From contig NZ_CP041372.2 in assembly GCF_006965545.2 (NCBI RefSeq), positions 3,224,001 through 3,288,000 of the forward strand: 64,000 bases of DNA. The letters are read 5' to 3'. Below the pieces are notes generated by a model. It had not been told where the DNA came from and searched no databases. It saw nothing but the letters and a program-made list of their open reading frames with translations. This DNA is from Paenalkalicoccus suaedae (GTDB lineage: Bacteria > Bacillota > Bacilli > Bacillales > Salisediminibacteriaceae). Shown in pieces: positions 21,951-45,792 of the stretch. A program made the position numbers and the translations under genes. Positions within the stretch are counted from its first letter, which is position 1. Every line of letters begins with the position of its first letter.

Positions 21951-22180
21951 TATAAAAAGGCTATCAACCTCGCGAAGGGACGTGCGCACACGCGGTACCA
22001 CCCTTCTTGAAGTCAATAGCCTTCCAACTCTGCGACTAACGGCTCGCTAACCGGCCTGCGCTACTCACGCTGGCAGCTCAAGGAGTGTAATTCGGTTCAC
22101 CTGTGTATCGGTTCGCAGCACCCACCGACTCTCTGCAACAGGGAGATGACACCTACTTCGCTTCCTCTCAATGCTATTCT
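21951..22180 (-). promoter_or_regulatory. T-box riboswitch leader of tyrZ
   Basis: The minus strand shows the T-box sequence AAGGGTGGTACCGCG (21991-22005) ahead of a terminator whose 3' arm is followed by TTTTTATATTTT. In stem I, GAATTACAC places a UAC Tyr codon at 22087-22089 in the specifier position. Uncharged tRNA-Tyr would stabilise the antiterminator and raise tyrZ expression. Confidence 0.92.
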
Positions 22181-35612: not shown

Positions 35613-35653
35613 CCGCGCCTCACTTTCTCACATAATCTTACTATCATTAAAAG

Positions 35654-35743
35654 CGAGGCAACGACCTATCGCCTCGTGTCCCTCATCAATAAATAGGAAA
35701 AGGTTCATAACCCTTATTAACATCGTAACCACAGGTGTCCCGC
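35654..35743 (-). ncRNA. truncated copy C of the structured element
   Basis: The segment has the conserved CGAGGCAACG-N6-CGCCTCG hairpin and AACATCGTAACC, matching copies A and B, but ends where the GGTGCCCC helix would begin (here GGTGTCCC) and lacks the rest. Strand is uncertain; minus is chosen because the hairpin is then followed by CTTTT. Confidence 0.5.
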
Positions 35744-41237: not shown

Positions 41238-41273
41238 GTAGCTGCTACTAATAATGCTGCCTTCAATGAAAAG

Positions 41274-41502
41274 CGAGGCAACGGTCTTGCGCCTCGTGCC
41301 TCTTCCTCACAAAAAAGAGAAAGATGTCACTACTATTACAAACATCGTAACCGCAGGTGCCCCGTAGCGACGGGCGGACTCCTAGAGGGGAACTCGCGTA
41401 GGTGAAAATCCTTTTGCACGGCCCATGGACGGGCAAAATAGTTGAACTAGCGCCTCAGGAAAGACGCCCCATAGCGCAGGGGCACCGGAGGTGACCTCTC
41501 TT
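41274..41502 (-). ncRNA. structured RNA-like element, copy A
   Basis: An eight-bp outer helix GGTGCCCC (41356-41363) / GGGGCACC (41480-41487) encloses further helices, and a CGAGGC/GCCTCG hairpin stands outside it. Compared with copy B, conserved stretches (CATCGTAACCGCAGGTGCCC, GAAAATCCTTT, AATAGTTGA, ACCGGAGGTGACCTCTC) alternate with segments that differ in sequence but still pair. Strand unproven; minus is chosen because the terminal hairpin is then followed by CTTTT. An IS256 element inserted 17 bp beyond it. Confidence 0.6.
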
Positions 41503-41509
41503 AACAATG

Positions 41510-41518
41510 ATCTCCCCG
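41510..41518. repeat. IS256 target-site duplication, left copy
   Basis: GATCTCCCC here equals 42890-42898 on the other side of the element. Confidence 0.9.
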
Positions 41519-42889
41519 GCCTTGTAAACTAAACTGTGTAAGTAAGAGTGCGTACGACTTTTACTTCGCAGTTTAGTTTTTTATTGTTAAGATAAATTCA
41601 TATGGTTGGAGGAGGATGGGTATGGTGAAAAAGGATCGAAATGCTAAAGCGAGTGAGTTGGCAAAACAGATACTAGAGACGTATGAGCCTGAATCCGTTC
41701 AAGATATGCAGGAAGCCCTTAAAGATATCTTTGGTCCAATGTTTGAATCTATGCTAAAAGGCGAGATGAATCACCATCTAGGTTACCAATCTAACAGTAA
41801 AGAAGAGAAAGAATCACTAAACAGAAGAAATGGTTATGGGAAAAAGACGCTTCAAACGAGCTCTGGTGAACTGGACATTCAAGTGCCACGTGATCGAGAC
41901 GGATCATTTGAACCTCTTCTTGTCCCAAAGCGTAAAAAGAATCTCTCTGAGATGGAGGATAAGGTAATCTCGATGTACGCGAGAGGTATGTCACAACGTG
42001 ATATCTCCTCTACAATTGAGGAGATCTATGGCTTTTCCATCTCTCACGAGATGGTCTCAGACATCACAGACAGTGTGATGCCAGATCTTGAAGAGTGGCA
42101 GTTCCGTCCACTTCAAAGCTGTTATTCATTTCTGTTTGTAGACTGTATGTATACCACCATTCGTAACCACCACGAGACGAGAAAGTATGCCGTTTATACG
42201 ATTCTCGGTTATACACTTGAAGGTAAAAAAGAGATTTTAGGTTTGTGGCTAAATGAAACAGAAAGTAAACACAAATGGATGCAGATCTTCGATGAGATTA
42301 AGTCCCGAGGTGTCGAAGACATCTTCTTTATTTCAATGGATGGTGTCAGTGGATTAGAAGAAGGCGCTAAAGCCGTCTTCCCAGAGGTCGTGGTCCAGCG
42401 TTGTATTGTTCATTTAATACGCAACTCTGTCCGTTATGTACCTTATAAAGACTATCGTGCTTTCACTAAATCTCTTAAAACCGTTTATGGTGCTCCAAAT
42501 TTGAAAGCTTGCCGAAAAGCCTTTGATGAGTTTGAGAAGCAATGGACACAATACCCAGGCGCTATTGATGTCTGGAGAAGAAACCTTCAACACGTTGAAC
42601 AGCTTTTTGATTATGGCAGTGCGATTCGAAGAATCATGTACACCACCAACGCGGTCGAAAGTGTTCACTCCAGCTTTAGAAAAGTCACTAAAAAAGGAGC
42701 ATTCCCCCATGAGAATGCTTTATTAAAACTACTCTTTTTACGGATTAGAGAATTAGAAGTGAAATGGGCAACTGGCTTCGTTCCTAACTGGGCCCAAGTA
42801 TTAAATCAGCTATTGATCAATGAAAGCCTACAGACTAGGGCTGCCAAGTACCTGGAGTAAGAAACTTACACAGTTTATTTGACAAACCC
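41519..42889 (+). mobile_element. IS256-family insertion sequence, complete (1371 bp)
   Basis: Imperfect terminal inverted repeats: left GGCCTTGTAAACTAAACTGT and right (reverse complement) GGGTTTGTCAAATAAACTGT, each continuing GTAAGT. A 9-bp duplication GATCTCCCC flanks both ends, in line with IS256. The single transposase gene is intact. It inserted between structured element A and the MFS gene. Confidence 0.95.
41616..42860 (+). CDS. IS256-family transposase
   Basis: A 414-residue DDE transposase of the MULE/IS256 (Transposase_mut) type. N-terminal ALKDIFGPMFESMLKGEM region, then SSGELDIQVPRDRDGSFEP; catalytic Asp candidates in FLFVDCMYTTI and ISMDGVSGLEEG, the C/H motif RCIVHLIRNSVRYV, and the Glu region in TTNAVESVHSSFRKVTKKG. 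Full length and uninterrupted, so probably able to transpose the element. Confidence 0.95.
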   Translation: MGMVKKDRNAKASELAKQILETYEPESVQDMQEALKDIFGPMFESMLKGEMNHHLGYQSNSKEEKESLNRRNGYGKKTLQTSSGELDIQVPRDRDGSFEPLLVPKRKKNLSEMEDKVISMYARGMSQRDISSTIEEIYGFSISHEMVSDITDSVMPDLEEWQFRPLQSCYSFLFVDCMYTTIRNHHETRKYAVYTILGYTLEGKKEILGLWLNETESKHKWMQIFDEIKSRGVEDIFFISMDGVSGLEEGAKAVFPEVVVQRCIVHLIRNSVRYVPYKDYRAFTKSLKTVYGAPNLKACRKAFDEFEKQWTQYPGAIDVWRRNLQHVEQLFDYGSAIRRIMYTTNAVESVHSSFRKVTKKGAFPHENALLKLLFLRIRELEVKWATGFVPNWAQVLNQLLINESLQTRAAKYLE

Positions 42890-42915
42890 GATCTCCCCTG
42901 CAAACACCCCCACCA

Positions 42916-44124
42916 TCAAGCAGACACCCTCACTCTTTCCTCCTCACGCACCCCAATCACAACCCGACACACATACACGCCTAACGCCAAAAACGCCACC
43001 GAACTCCCGACGTACACCGCCCGAATGCCGAGCCACTCCGCAAGCACCCCAACGCCAAACACCACCACAATTGCCCCGACCGCCTCGATCATCCCGACTA
43101 AATTCGTGAACCGCCCCAGTATCTCCACCGGGATCCGCGCTTGATAAAACGTCAAGAATCCAACGTGCGCAAACGTCATCGCAAACGTCAGCACGAAGAA
43201 TCCGATCGCCGCCACCAAAAACGATTCCGCAAACGCGAACACCAAATACCCCACCGGCGTCACGACTGCTCCGACTCCCATCAACACGCTGACCCGCAAC
43301 CGCGCGGCGAATCCTGCGTTTACCAGCGACCCAACAACCATGCCGAGACCTGCAATGCCAACTAAAAATCCATATGCCGATTCAGAAAATAACAACACGC
43401 TCGTCGCGAACGCGACCTCAAGAGAATCAATTCCAGCTAAAAATACGCCAAACATCCCAAACAGCACGTACACCCAAGTCACATAGCCGTTACTCCGTCC
43501 AAACGCGAGCACCGTCCGCAAGTCCTCCTTCACAACAGCAAACGTCACACGTTCAAACACCTCGTCTTCCTTCCGCGGATCTAAATCCGGCAACAGTATG
43601 ATAATAAACGCCGACACTAGAAGCGCCACCGCATTCACCACGATCGCCGTCTCCGGTGAACTCACCACAAACAGAATTCCCGCAACCGACGGTCCGATGA
43701 TAAAGCCACTCGATTGAATGAAGTTACGCAACGAATTGAACCGCTGCCTGTTTTCCCCCGGCACAAGCTTGGTCATGTACACGAGCGACGTCGACTCAAA
43801 GATCGAGCTCGCCATGTTGATCAAAAACACCAGCACATAAATCACGACCAACGAGTCAACAAACGCCACACATAAAATCAACCCCGCACGCACCACATCC
43901 AGTCCAATCATCATCGTCCGCTTATTAAGCCGATCGATAAACGACCCCGCCCACACATCCGTGGCGAGCGACGCCAACGGAATCAGCATATACAAAACTG
44001 CCACCGCAAACGGCGAGCCCGTCATCGTAAACACCAAAATGTTCAACGCGAGCAAATACACCCACGCACCAATATTCGAAATCCCAACTCCAACTAACAG
44101 TAAAAACGGAGCCTTCCAATTCAT
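42916..44124 (-). CDS. MFS transporter under T-box control
   Basis: A 402-residue major facilitator protein with twelve predicted helices. The loop SFIDRLNKRTMMIGLDVVRA after helix 2 corresponds to the MFS motif A region, and the overall pattern is that of the MefA/EntS-like efflux group. It probably exports a small molecule. GGGAG lies upstream of the ATG. Unusually, a T-box leader precedes it, linking its expression to an aminoacyl-tRNA, so the exported or imported compound is probably amino-acid related. Confidence 0.88.
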   Translation of the reverse strand: MNWKAPFLLLVGVGISNIGAWVYLLALNILVFTMTGSPFAVAVLYMLIPLASLATDVWAGSFIDRLNKRTMMIGLDVVRAGLILCVAFVDSLVVIYVLVFLINMASSIFESTSLVYMTKLVPGENRQRFNSLRNFIQSSGFIIGPSVAGILFVVSSPETAIVVNAVALLVSAFIIILLPDLDPRKEDEVFERVTFAVVKEDLRTVLAFGRSNGYVTWVYVLFGMFGVFLAGIDSLEVAFATSVLLFSESAYGFLVGIAGLGMVVGSLVNAGFAARLRVSVLMGVGAVVTPVGYLVFAFAESFLVAAIGFFVLTFAMTFAHVGFLTFYQARIPVEILGRFTNLVGMIEAVGAIVVVFGVGVLAEWLGIRAVYVGSSVAFLALGVYVCRVVIGVREEERVRVSA

Positions 44125-44156
44125 GTAGCATCACTCCCGACTAATTCTTCTTACCA

Positions 44157-44477
44157 AACAAAAAAAGTCCCACCCCCAAGGTTCATTAACCTTGAGGACG
44201 AGACTTCGTATGTAAGAAGTTCGCGGTGCCACCCCAGTTTGCGCACGTATCGCCACGGGCGCCTTTTCAAGTACGTCGCGATGCCCCGCGAGTATACTCT
44301 ATCTCTGTAACGGGAGAACCCGGCGCGCCATCACCCTCCTAGCGAGAGATCCTTCGCACAGCTCAGAGACTTGTTTCCCGCGGCCATCGCATCCCCCATT
44401 CCCACCACCAGGAGGTCTCTAACATGCCAGCACCGCCGTACTTTCCTCATCATCGCCAAATAATTAGGATAAGTATA
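44157..44477 (-). promoter_or_regulatory. T-box riboswitch leader and promoter of the MFS gene
   Basis: Minus strand: promoter TTTGCA - 17 bp - TATACT (-10 at 44472-44477), then stem I, the T-box GGGGTGGCACCGCG (44222-44235), and a terminator GTCTCGTCCTCAAGG / CCTTGGGGGTGGGAC followed by TTTTTTT. Just before the closing stem GTCTCT, the specifier loop reads GGAAACAA, making ACA (Thr) or AAC (Asn) the candidate codon; I cannot decide between them by eye. Confidence 0.88.
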
Positions 44478-44634
44478 GCAGATCCCAGAACCCCTGCAAA
44501 CATTCTTTTGGGGAGGAAATGTGGCTGAACTGCTGAAGCCACTGTAACCCACCTTCTATGTAAAAACTCTTTCGCTAATGCCTAAACCCAAGTTAACCCG
44601 AAGATCCAGCCGCTACCTCGTCGGTTGTGATTTG

Positions 44635-44760
44635 CATTTTGTCATAACCTCTTCCCATATTGTCATAACTGTCTACCACATTGTCATAACTGTCTACCAC
44701 ATTGTCATAACCTCACCCTATTTCCGGATTACCTCCACCCTTGAACGGATTACCGCTCCA
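44635..44760. repeat. 21-bp array, GTCATAAC then CGGATTAC units
   Basis: Four TGTCATAAC units at about 21-bp spacing pass into units with CGGATTAC. A leader-like GATCCAGCCGCTACCTCGTC (44601) stands upstream. The array ends at the stop codon of the small membrane protein. Confidence 0.8.
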
Positions 44761-44955
44761 CTACGCGAGCCACCTTCGCACCCACGCATACAACTCCTGC
44801 ATCACCACAACCGCCACCACAAAGTACACGCCAAACAACAAGTTCCGCACGATCTCTGGATCCCCGCCGCTGTGATAGTCACCCTGCGCGTGCAACCCGA
44901 CGATCACCACAAATCCGACCAGCAATCCGATAACTCTCGCCCGCGTCACCTTCAT
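44761..44955 (-). CDS. small membrane protein
   Basis: A 64-residue protein with two predicted helices (about 7-21 and 39-56) separated by a polar loop HAQGDYHSGGDPE. GGAGGGG precedes the ATG. Family unknown to me; the layout resembles many short Bacillaceae inner-membrane proteins. Confidence 0.65.
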   Translation of the reverse strand: MKVTRARVIGLLVGFVVIVGLHAQGDYHSGGDPEIVRNLLFGVYFVVAVVVMQELYAWVRRWLA

Positions 44956-45118
44956 AAAATCCCCTCCAATTTACCAGTTAACCCATCATATCACATGACA
45001 GAAAATCCAGCAGACCCTCCCCACCTCGCCGACCGGATCTTCATAACCGGCACTTCATTCACTAACTCTCTATATGAAGTAACACCCCTCAACCTAGTAA
45101 GAAAAACGGAGCGAACAA

Positions 45119-45390
45119 AAAGCCAGCCACCACCTCGCGAAGCTCCGTAAGTTCGTGATAACTGAACCTAGTTTTGTGATAACTGAACCGCATTTTGTGA
45201 TAACTACTCCTGATTTCCGGATAACTCAACCTAATTTTGTGATAACTGACTTCGATTCTGTGATAACTCTTCTACATTTCGTGATAACCGAACCCGATTC
45301 TGTGATAACTGTACTCCAATTCCGGATAAGCGCACCCGATTCATTGATAACCACACCACATTTCCAGATATCGTATTTCACCAAGCTTGA
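45119..45390. repeat. composite unit B: leader plus 21-bp GTGATAAC/CGGATAAC array
   Basis: The leader AGCCAGCCACCACCTCGCGA (from 45121) and AGCTCCG are followed by about ten units at 21-bp spacing; the core is mostly GTGATAACTG but switches to CGGATAA or TTGATAA in some units without loss of phase. It ends CACCACATTTCC-GATA-TCGTATTTCACC, as unit C does. Confidence 0.85.
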
Positions 45391-45422
45391 TTTTTGGAGG
45401 AAACCTTACCCTCATTTAAAAA

Positions 45423-45657
45423 CGAGGCAACGAACTCTCGCCTCGTGCTCCTTAACAATAAAGAGGAAGGGTTCATATCCCTTATCAACATCGTAACCGC
45501 AGGTGCCCCGCAGTGACGTTTGCGTACTACTAGTGGTAGCCCTTACGCGCAGCGAAAATCCTTTCGAACGGCCATTGGTTTGGCCGTTCGAAATAGTTGA
45601 GCTAGCAACCACCTGTAGTTGCAAACGACACGTAGGGGCACCGGAGGTGACCTCTCT
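45423..45657 (-). ncRNA. structured RNA-like element, copy B
   Basis: Outer helix GGTGCCCC (45502-45509) / GGGGCACC (45635-45642); next GTG-CGTTTGC / GCAAACG-CAC; then GCGTA / TACGC with inner CTAC / GTAG; then a 13-bp hairpin TTTCGAACGGCCA / TGGCCGTTCGAAA. Copy A differs in most of these arms but keeps pairing at several. On the minus strand the final hairpin is followed by TTTTT and a TATAAT box (45675-45680) lies just upstream, so a roughly 235-nt minus-strand transcript is plausible. Confidence 0.65.
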
Positions 45658-45792
45658 CGATTTTCTCATGCACTATTATATAAAGGAAAATTTTCTTACG
45701 ATAACCGAATAAACCGCAAAAACAAGAAAAATTTCCACCATATCGCTTGATCTTTGCCTGCCTCCCCTTTACACTTAACGTAATTAGTGCTG

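Follow-up and report, generated by a model that had tools for sequence, protein, structure and literature searches.

Copies A and B of a Paenalkalicoccus suaedae locus belong to a dispersed, structured repeat family found across the class Bacilli

The 64,000-nucleotide stretch of the Paenalkalicoccus suaedae chromosome analysed here (the window; C3:3224001-3288000 of the 4.04-Mb source genome, G000) contains two related non-coding elements, copy A (41274-41502) and copy B (45423-45657), which a first-pass annotation of the sequence had proposed as a candidate new structured RNA. Its coordinates were borne out, as was its description of the pair: blocks of identity alternate with segments that differ and still pair, the GGTGCCCC/GGGGCACC helix has the same letters in both copies, and the loop of a CGAGGC hairpin at their left end varies between them. 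Read on the minus strand, this hairpin is followed by a short U-run, visible as AAAA at 41269-41272 (copy A) and AAAAA at 45418-45422 (copy B) on the plus strand. The open reading frames listed over the two copies are short (60-113 aa). An IS256-family element, which spans 41509-42898 with its 9-bp target duplication (GATCTCCCC at 41509-41517 and 42890-42898), now separates copy A from an MFS-type gene on its right; before this insertion, the copy is computed to have lain about 32 nt behind the stop of that gene. Copies A and B turned out to belong to a dispersed repeat family, far beyond chance, whose conserved core folds into a long rod.

As a BLAST query, copy B retrieved 41 matches in the source genome. 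A covariance model built from an alignment of 31 own copies (R1, from alignment A2) returned 129 rows, of which 31 were antisense overlaps of the same copies; their removal left at least 98 sense copies, a lower bound with 150 of the 798 candidates scored. A second model, R2, built from 56 rods, found at least 99 places with 150 of 489 candidates scored, including one (C3:2098766) in a stretch without R1 copies. The repeat unit, at about 235 bp, is short, non-coding and multi-copy, and a simple word rule divides the 98 own copies into four subfamilies of 46, 31, 15 and 6. Since median identity is 0.75-0.83 within subfamilies and 0.62 between them, and no two copies are identical, the expansion in this genome looks old. 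The expectation of a single new RNA gene gives way to a family of repeats that numbers about 99 copies in this genome and some of whose relatives lie in transposon-like elements.

The plus-strand core of the repeat is one long imperfect hairpin, in which an outer stem, a GC-rich stem and a third stem lead to a conserved internal loop and an apical hairpin. Among the 31 own copies, 16 of 40 predicted pairs show changes on both sides. This rises to 28 of 30 pairs in the 56-rod alignment, which combines 31 rods chosen from the 98 own copies with 25 taken from 13 genomes that represent four further genera of the family (two of 27 relatives' rods, one partial and one a near-duplicate, were left out); the compensatory changes claimed in the first-pass annotation are therefore real. 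The covariation score of this alignment is 0.694, compared with 0.219 ± 0.010 after shuffling and at most 0.143 when the partner is slid by 1-3 columns, and 93.2% of paired cells hold a pair, compared with 67.9% (shuffled) and at most 49.0% (slid). In the apical hairpin, columns 73-95 pair as GC in 20, CG in 17, AU in 11 and UA in 6 of the 56 rods, and the eight pairs of this helix include two wobble cells over all rows. The most conserved part is the loop itself, a 5′ GA-NN-ATCC facing a 3′ TAG-N′N′-GA, with ATCC in 56/56 rods, TAG in 54/56, and GA in 55/56 on the 5′ side and 53/56 on the 3′ side. Its two inner NN pairs also covary (AU 44 with GC 10, and AU 44 with GC 9), giving the matched variants GAAAATCC with TAGTTGA, GAGAATCC with TAGTCGA and GAAGATCC with TAGCTGA. 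Sheared G.A pairs are to be expected where GA steps oppose each other in this way; the plus strand is taken as the structured one because GA faces GA there, whereas the complementary strand would set UC against UC. Wobble counts over the plus-derived structure of the 56 rods point the same way less strongly, with G.U 86 against A.C 33, which falls to 50 against 31 once two doubtful pairs are set aside. UNCG loops on the minus strand, considered early on, did not hold up when pairs were counted.

The rod family is spread over the class Bacilli. Within the family, R1 matched 15 of 35 genomes, counting the source genome, and R2 matched 161 of 299 genomes in a draw from the order (77 of 116 genera) and 57 of 348 in a draw from the class, of which 44 lie outside the order. 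From the phylum, 398 genomes were drawn, an unspecified share of them outside the class, and three matched: the own genome, one member of the order and one of the class. Scoring in these three draws was limited to 7-10 candidates per genome; the copy numbers are therefore minimum values, and some carrier genomes may have gone undetected. Two genomes of one genus (2.3-2.6 Mb) each hold three rods as direct repeats about 310-360 bp apart (L268 on G626:C8, and G524:C16).

Rfam was searched with the window, copies A and B, their relatives and copies from the wider class, using gathering as well as relaxed thresholds. No family reached its cut-off over the element, and nothing credible as a riboswitch, ribozyme or T-box lay over copies A or B; the first-pass annotation had likewise matched no riboswitch or ribozyme pattern. 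The novelty claimed for the RNA stands as far as these cut-offs go; the element is not wholly new, given a distant similarity to RF02577, the Staphylococcus aureus tsr24 RNA. This closest Rfam family was hit in 7 of 20 class-level stretches with 25.7-37.3 bits against a gathering score of 50, and three stretches searched again yielded E values of 8.7e-6, 7.8e-5 and 0.0092. Six of the seven matches overlap the element on the plus strand, and the seventh (L269) is to a neighbouring copy; copies A and B themselves gave no tsr24 match up to E 5. Two other candidates, group II intron matches in L108 and a Bacillaceae-1 match in L217, lay beside the element, not within it, and were rejected.

Evidence for mobility comes from other genomes. 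In G215, nine of ten loci hold the rod inside elements of 209-210 bp with 16-bp inverted repeats, and in G113 both loci hold it inside 187-bp elements with other ends. Compared with 116 shuffles, the inverted repeats of L187, L196, L198 and L199 are longer than any control (13-22 identities versus at most 12), and those of L200 and L204 (11 and 12) fall within the shuffled range. An 8-bp direct repeat (TATTTGGT) stands exactly beside the ends of L200, and direct repeats stand one base outside the ends as cut in L187 (9 bp), L227 (9) and L228 (8). The G190 element occupies seven places (counting the query), with 100% identity across 268-325 nt up to the contig ends that truncate them. A 95% copy of it, L235, places the rod between an IS1380-family transposase gene and the end of that element; the transposase is a fragment cut by the contig start and below the whole-protein cut-off (NF033539, E 4.7e-27; PF13701, E 6e-11). 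Another G190 rod, L212, lies inside an element of the G215 type. A search of plasmids found none with the G215 element and one 72% partial match to the G113 element, on a plasmid of Radiobacillus, where it lies between pth and a gene of the IS110 family. Finally, the gap behind an orthologous DeoR-type gene (PF00455) holds different rod members in three genomes: copy A in the window, L031 in Jeotgalibacillus terrae (plus strand, R2 47.2 bits), and L045 in Jeotgalibacillus sp. R-1-5s-1, an inverted (minus-strand) and weak match (16.4 bits, E 3.4e-4) obtained in a 561-base search with filters off and missing from the output with filters on. The three appear to be independent insertions at a single site.

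The copies of the source genome tend to lie immediately behind the stop codon of the right-hand gene, often with a terminator-like hairpin on the minus strand. By simple open reading frame (ORF) calls, on which all siting counts rest in place of annotation, 44 of the 60 right-hand genes that measure at least 200 aa and lie no more than 150 nt away face the element and 16 point away, and a left-hand gene of that size and distance was found for five copies only; with ORFs of at least 90 aa, 36 of 98 copies are convergent and 11 divergent. Under a strict rule, 59 of 98 copies have a CGAGGC or CTAGGC hairpin left of the rod, and in 39 of 98 this hairpin is preceded by at least five A in 10 nt, a minus-strand U-run; both are raw counts. 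Right of the rod, 75 of 98 copies have at least one degenerate CTTGAC-type word within 60 nt, compared with a shuffled mean of 0.15 per copy (one shuffle each).

On balance, we lean towards copies A and B being old, diverged copies of a non-autonomous mobile repeat that carries a conserved plus-strand rod as its payload and is mostly parked at the 3′ ends of genes. The own copies would have been spread by transposases acting in trans and would persist at gene 3′ ends because insertion is tolerated there. RNA read from the plus strand would then fold into the rod, as catalogued for S. aureus tsr24, and the conserved loop, at a best guess, may serve as the binding site of a protein, from the host or from a transposon, that promotes survival or movement of the element. 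A further and more speculative proposal, which we regard as doubtful, is that the rod constitutes a functional RNA domain (GA facing GA plus the AUCC/UAG loop, on an adjustable stem) that unrelated mobile elements of the Bacilli captured separately for the advantage it gave them, making it a selfish module with tsr24 as a catalogued representative. That advantage may lie, for example, in host protein binding or in transcript shielding.

Several observations weigh against this mobile-repeat interpretation. The mobility of the own copies rests on analogy, since they have no terminal inverted repeats above chance (longest flanking inverted matches of 4-11 versus 5-10 after shuffling) and the relatives searched included no other species of the source genus in which to look for empty sites. 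Even among the 29 loci of other genomes, only the four named above beat all 116 shuffles, three of these (L196, L198 and L199) come from the already-picked G215, G190 and G113, and 11 of the 29 have no inverted repeats of nine or more; this control slightly lowered our confidence. Among 21 loci from relatives (6, 6, 4 and 4, with 1 unclassed) no such siting preference emerges, and promoters are not enriched on either strand of the 98 copies. A strand-neutral wobble test over subfamilies S1-S3 (92 of 98 copies) hardly favoured G.U over A.C (91 versus 70), a near-equality unlike the expectation for an RNA. Neither the 20 closer sources (searched up to E 0.5) nor the L031 copy show similarity to tsr24, and 11 of 98 own copies lack the TAGTTGA/TAGTCGA side of the loop. 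Copies lacking it include L073, L076, L080, L119, L123, L154, L165, L168 and L173; in nine of them, belonging to S1 and S3, an AGCC-type block replaces that side, as if exchanged between copies.

E. coli repetitive extragenic palindromic (REP) elements can protect mRNA from 3′ exonucleases, and the repeat might likewise be a domesticated 3′ untranslated region (UTR) cassette, in which the rod and the terminator hairpin end the minus-strand mRNA of the neighbouring gene and shield it from such enzymes. The predominance of right-hand genes facing the element and the frequency of the left hairpin are consistent with such a role. A parallel exists in the bcr family repeats of the Bacillus cereus group, which are found in UTRs, with a correlation between bcr3 and longer mRNA half-life that its authors do not firmly conclude upon (PMC3446304). 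We nevertheless consider this explanation unlikely: the conserved mismatch motif makes sense on the strand opposite to that mRNA, 16 of the 60 right-hand neighbours point away, the loci of relatives lack the preference, and in some genomes the rods sit inside transposon-like elements.

The structure could also act at the DNA level, as a single-stranded hairpin or cruciform recognised in transposition or replication, with any RNA irrelevant; this we judge quite unlikely. CGNAG-type triloops, which are very stable in DNA, close the end hairpins of the repeat, and both the scarcity of wobble intermediates in the apical helix and the outcome of the strand-neutral test would fit. Against this, the source genome contains no gene for a Y1 (HUH) transposase (PF01797; 0 matches, with 5 of 14 control genomes positive), the copies show no chromosome-strand bias (49 on each strand), the sole transposase-bearing carrier encodes an enzyme of the DDE type (PF13701), and a related RNA has been catalogued as a small RNA of S. 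aureus. The lack of PF01797 was also the ground on which an identity with REP elements and their associated RAYT transposases or with IS200/IS605 elements was rejected.

That the minus strand encodes an independent small RNA of about 235 nt, the view taken in the first-pass annotation, is very improbable. The terminator-like hairpin with its U-run exists, as does the TATAAT box upstream of copy B (ATTATA at 45675 on the plus strand); this box is particular to B, and over the 98 copies TATAAT with at most one mismatch is rarer upstream on the minus strand than after shuffling (40 versus 61.2). Promoter-like sites are likewise fewer than in shuffled sequence, on the minus strand upstream (9 copies versus 17.9) and on the plus strand (13 and 14 versus 24.3 and 26.6). 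The conserved motif and the tsr24 similarity both belong to the plus strand, and copy A originally followed the MFS-type gene closely.

Least probable of all, in our estimate, is a chromosome-organising site bound by a nucleoid protein: R1 copies are missing from a 1.58-Mb stretch (C3 0.97-2.55 Mb) that includes the point opposite dnaA (C3:663), where 2000 uniform simulations gave a largest gap of 0.46 Mb, and 98 of 99 R2 places lie outside it with one inside, but the flanking arms are very uneven (16 copies before the stretch versus 82 after), no strand rule holds, and in other genomes the rods ride in transposons. A search with the B. subtilis dif pattern, allowing up to three mismatches, gave no match.

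The features of the two copies and of their surroundings are collected in Table 1. The third, rod-less copy, which sits behind a PTS EIIC-type gene, suggests that the rod may be lost with the ends retained. Degenerate tandem arrays of 21-bp units based on TTGTCATAACT and TTTTGTGATAACTGAACC occupy 44639-44711 and 45148-45357 of the window, and among the left flanks of 12 other copies looked at, some carry different arrays in the same style (TTATCCGATTATAGCC, GAATGAACCGTA and GAAATGCAGAC). Elsewhere in the window, a T-box leader lies on the minus strand at 21973-22180 (115.3 bits).

Table 1. Coordinates, in window positions, of the repeat copies, their parts and adjoining features.
Feature	Position	Strand	Evidence
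Copy A, left end: CGAGGC/GCCTCG hairpin and U-run, terminator-like	41269-41299	-	read from sequence
Copy A, rod (subfamily S2)	41342-41502	+	R1 107.1 bits; R2 41352-41491, 121.3 bits
Copy A, GAAAATCC, 5′ side of conserved internal loop (GA - AA - AUCC)	41404-41411	+	ATCC 56/56 rows, GA 55/56
Copy A, TAGTTGA, 3′ side of conserved internal loop (UAG - UU - GA)	41439-41445	+	TAG 54/56 rows, GA 53/56
Copy B, left end: CGAGGC/GCCTCG hairpin and U-run, terminator-like	45418-45449	-	read from sequence
Copy B, rod (subfamily S1)	45488-45658	+	R1 194.9 bits; R2 45498-45647, 105.4 bits
Copy B, GAAAATCC side of internal loop	45554-45561	+	sequence, 56-row motif count
Copy B, apical hairpin TTTCGAACGGCC-ATTGGTTT-GGCCGTTCGAAA	45562-45593	+	best-paired helix, 98.4% of cells
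Copy B, TAGTTGA side of internal loop	45594-45600	+	sequence, 56-row motif count
Third, rod-less copy (left hairpin, linker and end hairpin retained)	35649-35743	+	partial BLAST match C3:3259634-3259743
IS256-family insertion adjoining copy A (bystander)	41518-42889	+	NF033543, E 1e-114

Taken together, a strongly covarying repeat that occurs in about half of the sampled genomes of its order reaches no Rfam cut-off in the stretches tested. If its structure is functional, it represents a widespread element beside many genes; if it is selfish, the presence of one rod in carriers with different ends would be an uncommon example of a structural module moving from one transposon to another. In both cases, an orphan small RNA of S. 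aureus is linked to a class-wide family, for which a covariance model is now available for annotation.

No description of the rod family was found in the open-access papers searched; most subscription papers were outside this search, and an earlier description is possible. Among known systems, the rod repeats resemble miniature inverted-repeat transposable elements (MITEs) in being short, non-coding and multi-copy, and in G215, G113 and a few other genomes inverted repeats enclose the rods, in some cases with direct repeats next to them. They differ from MITEs in that the copies of the source genome have no inverted-repeat ends, and a structured core common to elements with different ends is not a defining MITE trait.

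Likened by description rather than by sequence, the bcr1-bcr18 repeats of the B. cereus group and Bhal-1 of B. halodurans are also dispersed, structured intergenic repeats of Bacillaceae. Of these, bcr10 and bcr18 are predicted functional RNAs (PMC3446304), and Bhal-1 has 36 copies of 74 bp (PMC2267715), which makes it much shorter than the rod repeat. REP/RAYT systems share with the rod repeats the nature of dispersed extragenic palindromes, REPs being given as 20-40 bp (PMC3733652).

The closest likeness at the sequence level is to tsr24. The Tsr RNAs were detected in S. aureus USA300 by RNA-Seq (PMC9266662, PMC7392542), with northern blots for five of the 39 (PMC9266662); our literature search found no text on tsr24 itself. 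The tsr24 model differs from the rod family in having a short apical loop where the latter has a long hairpin. Its positions 129-204 of 238 align, on the same strand, to rod-family members of other genera, and the arms GACUCC...GGGA / CCC...GGAAAGCG as well as the words GAAGACC / GGCUGA are common to tsr24 and these members.

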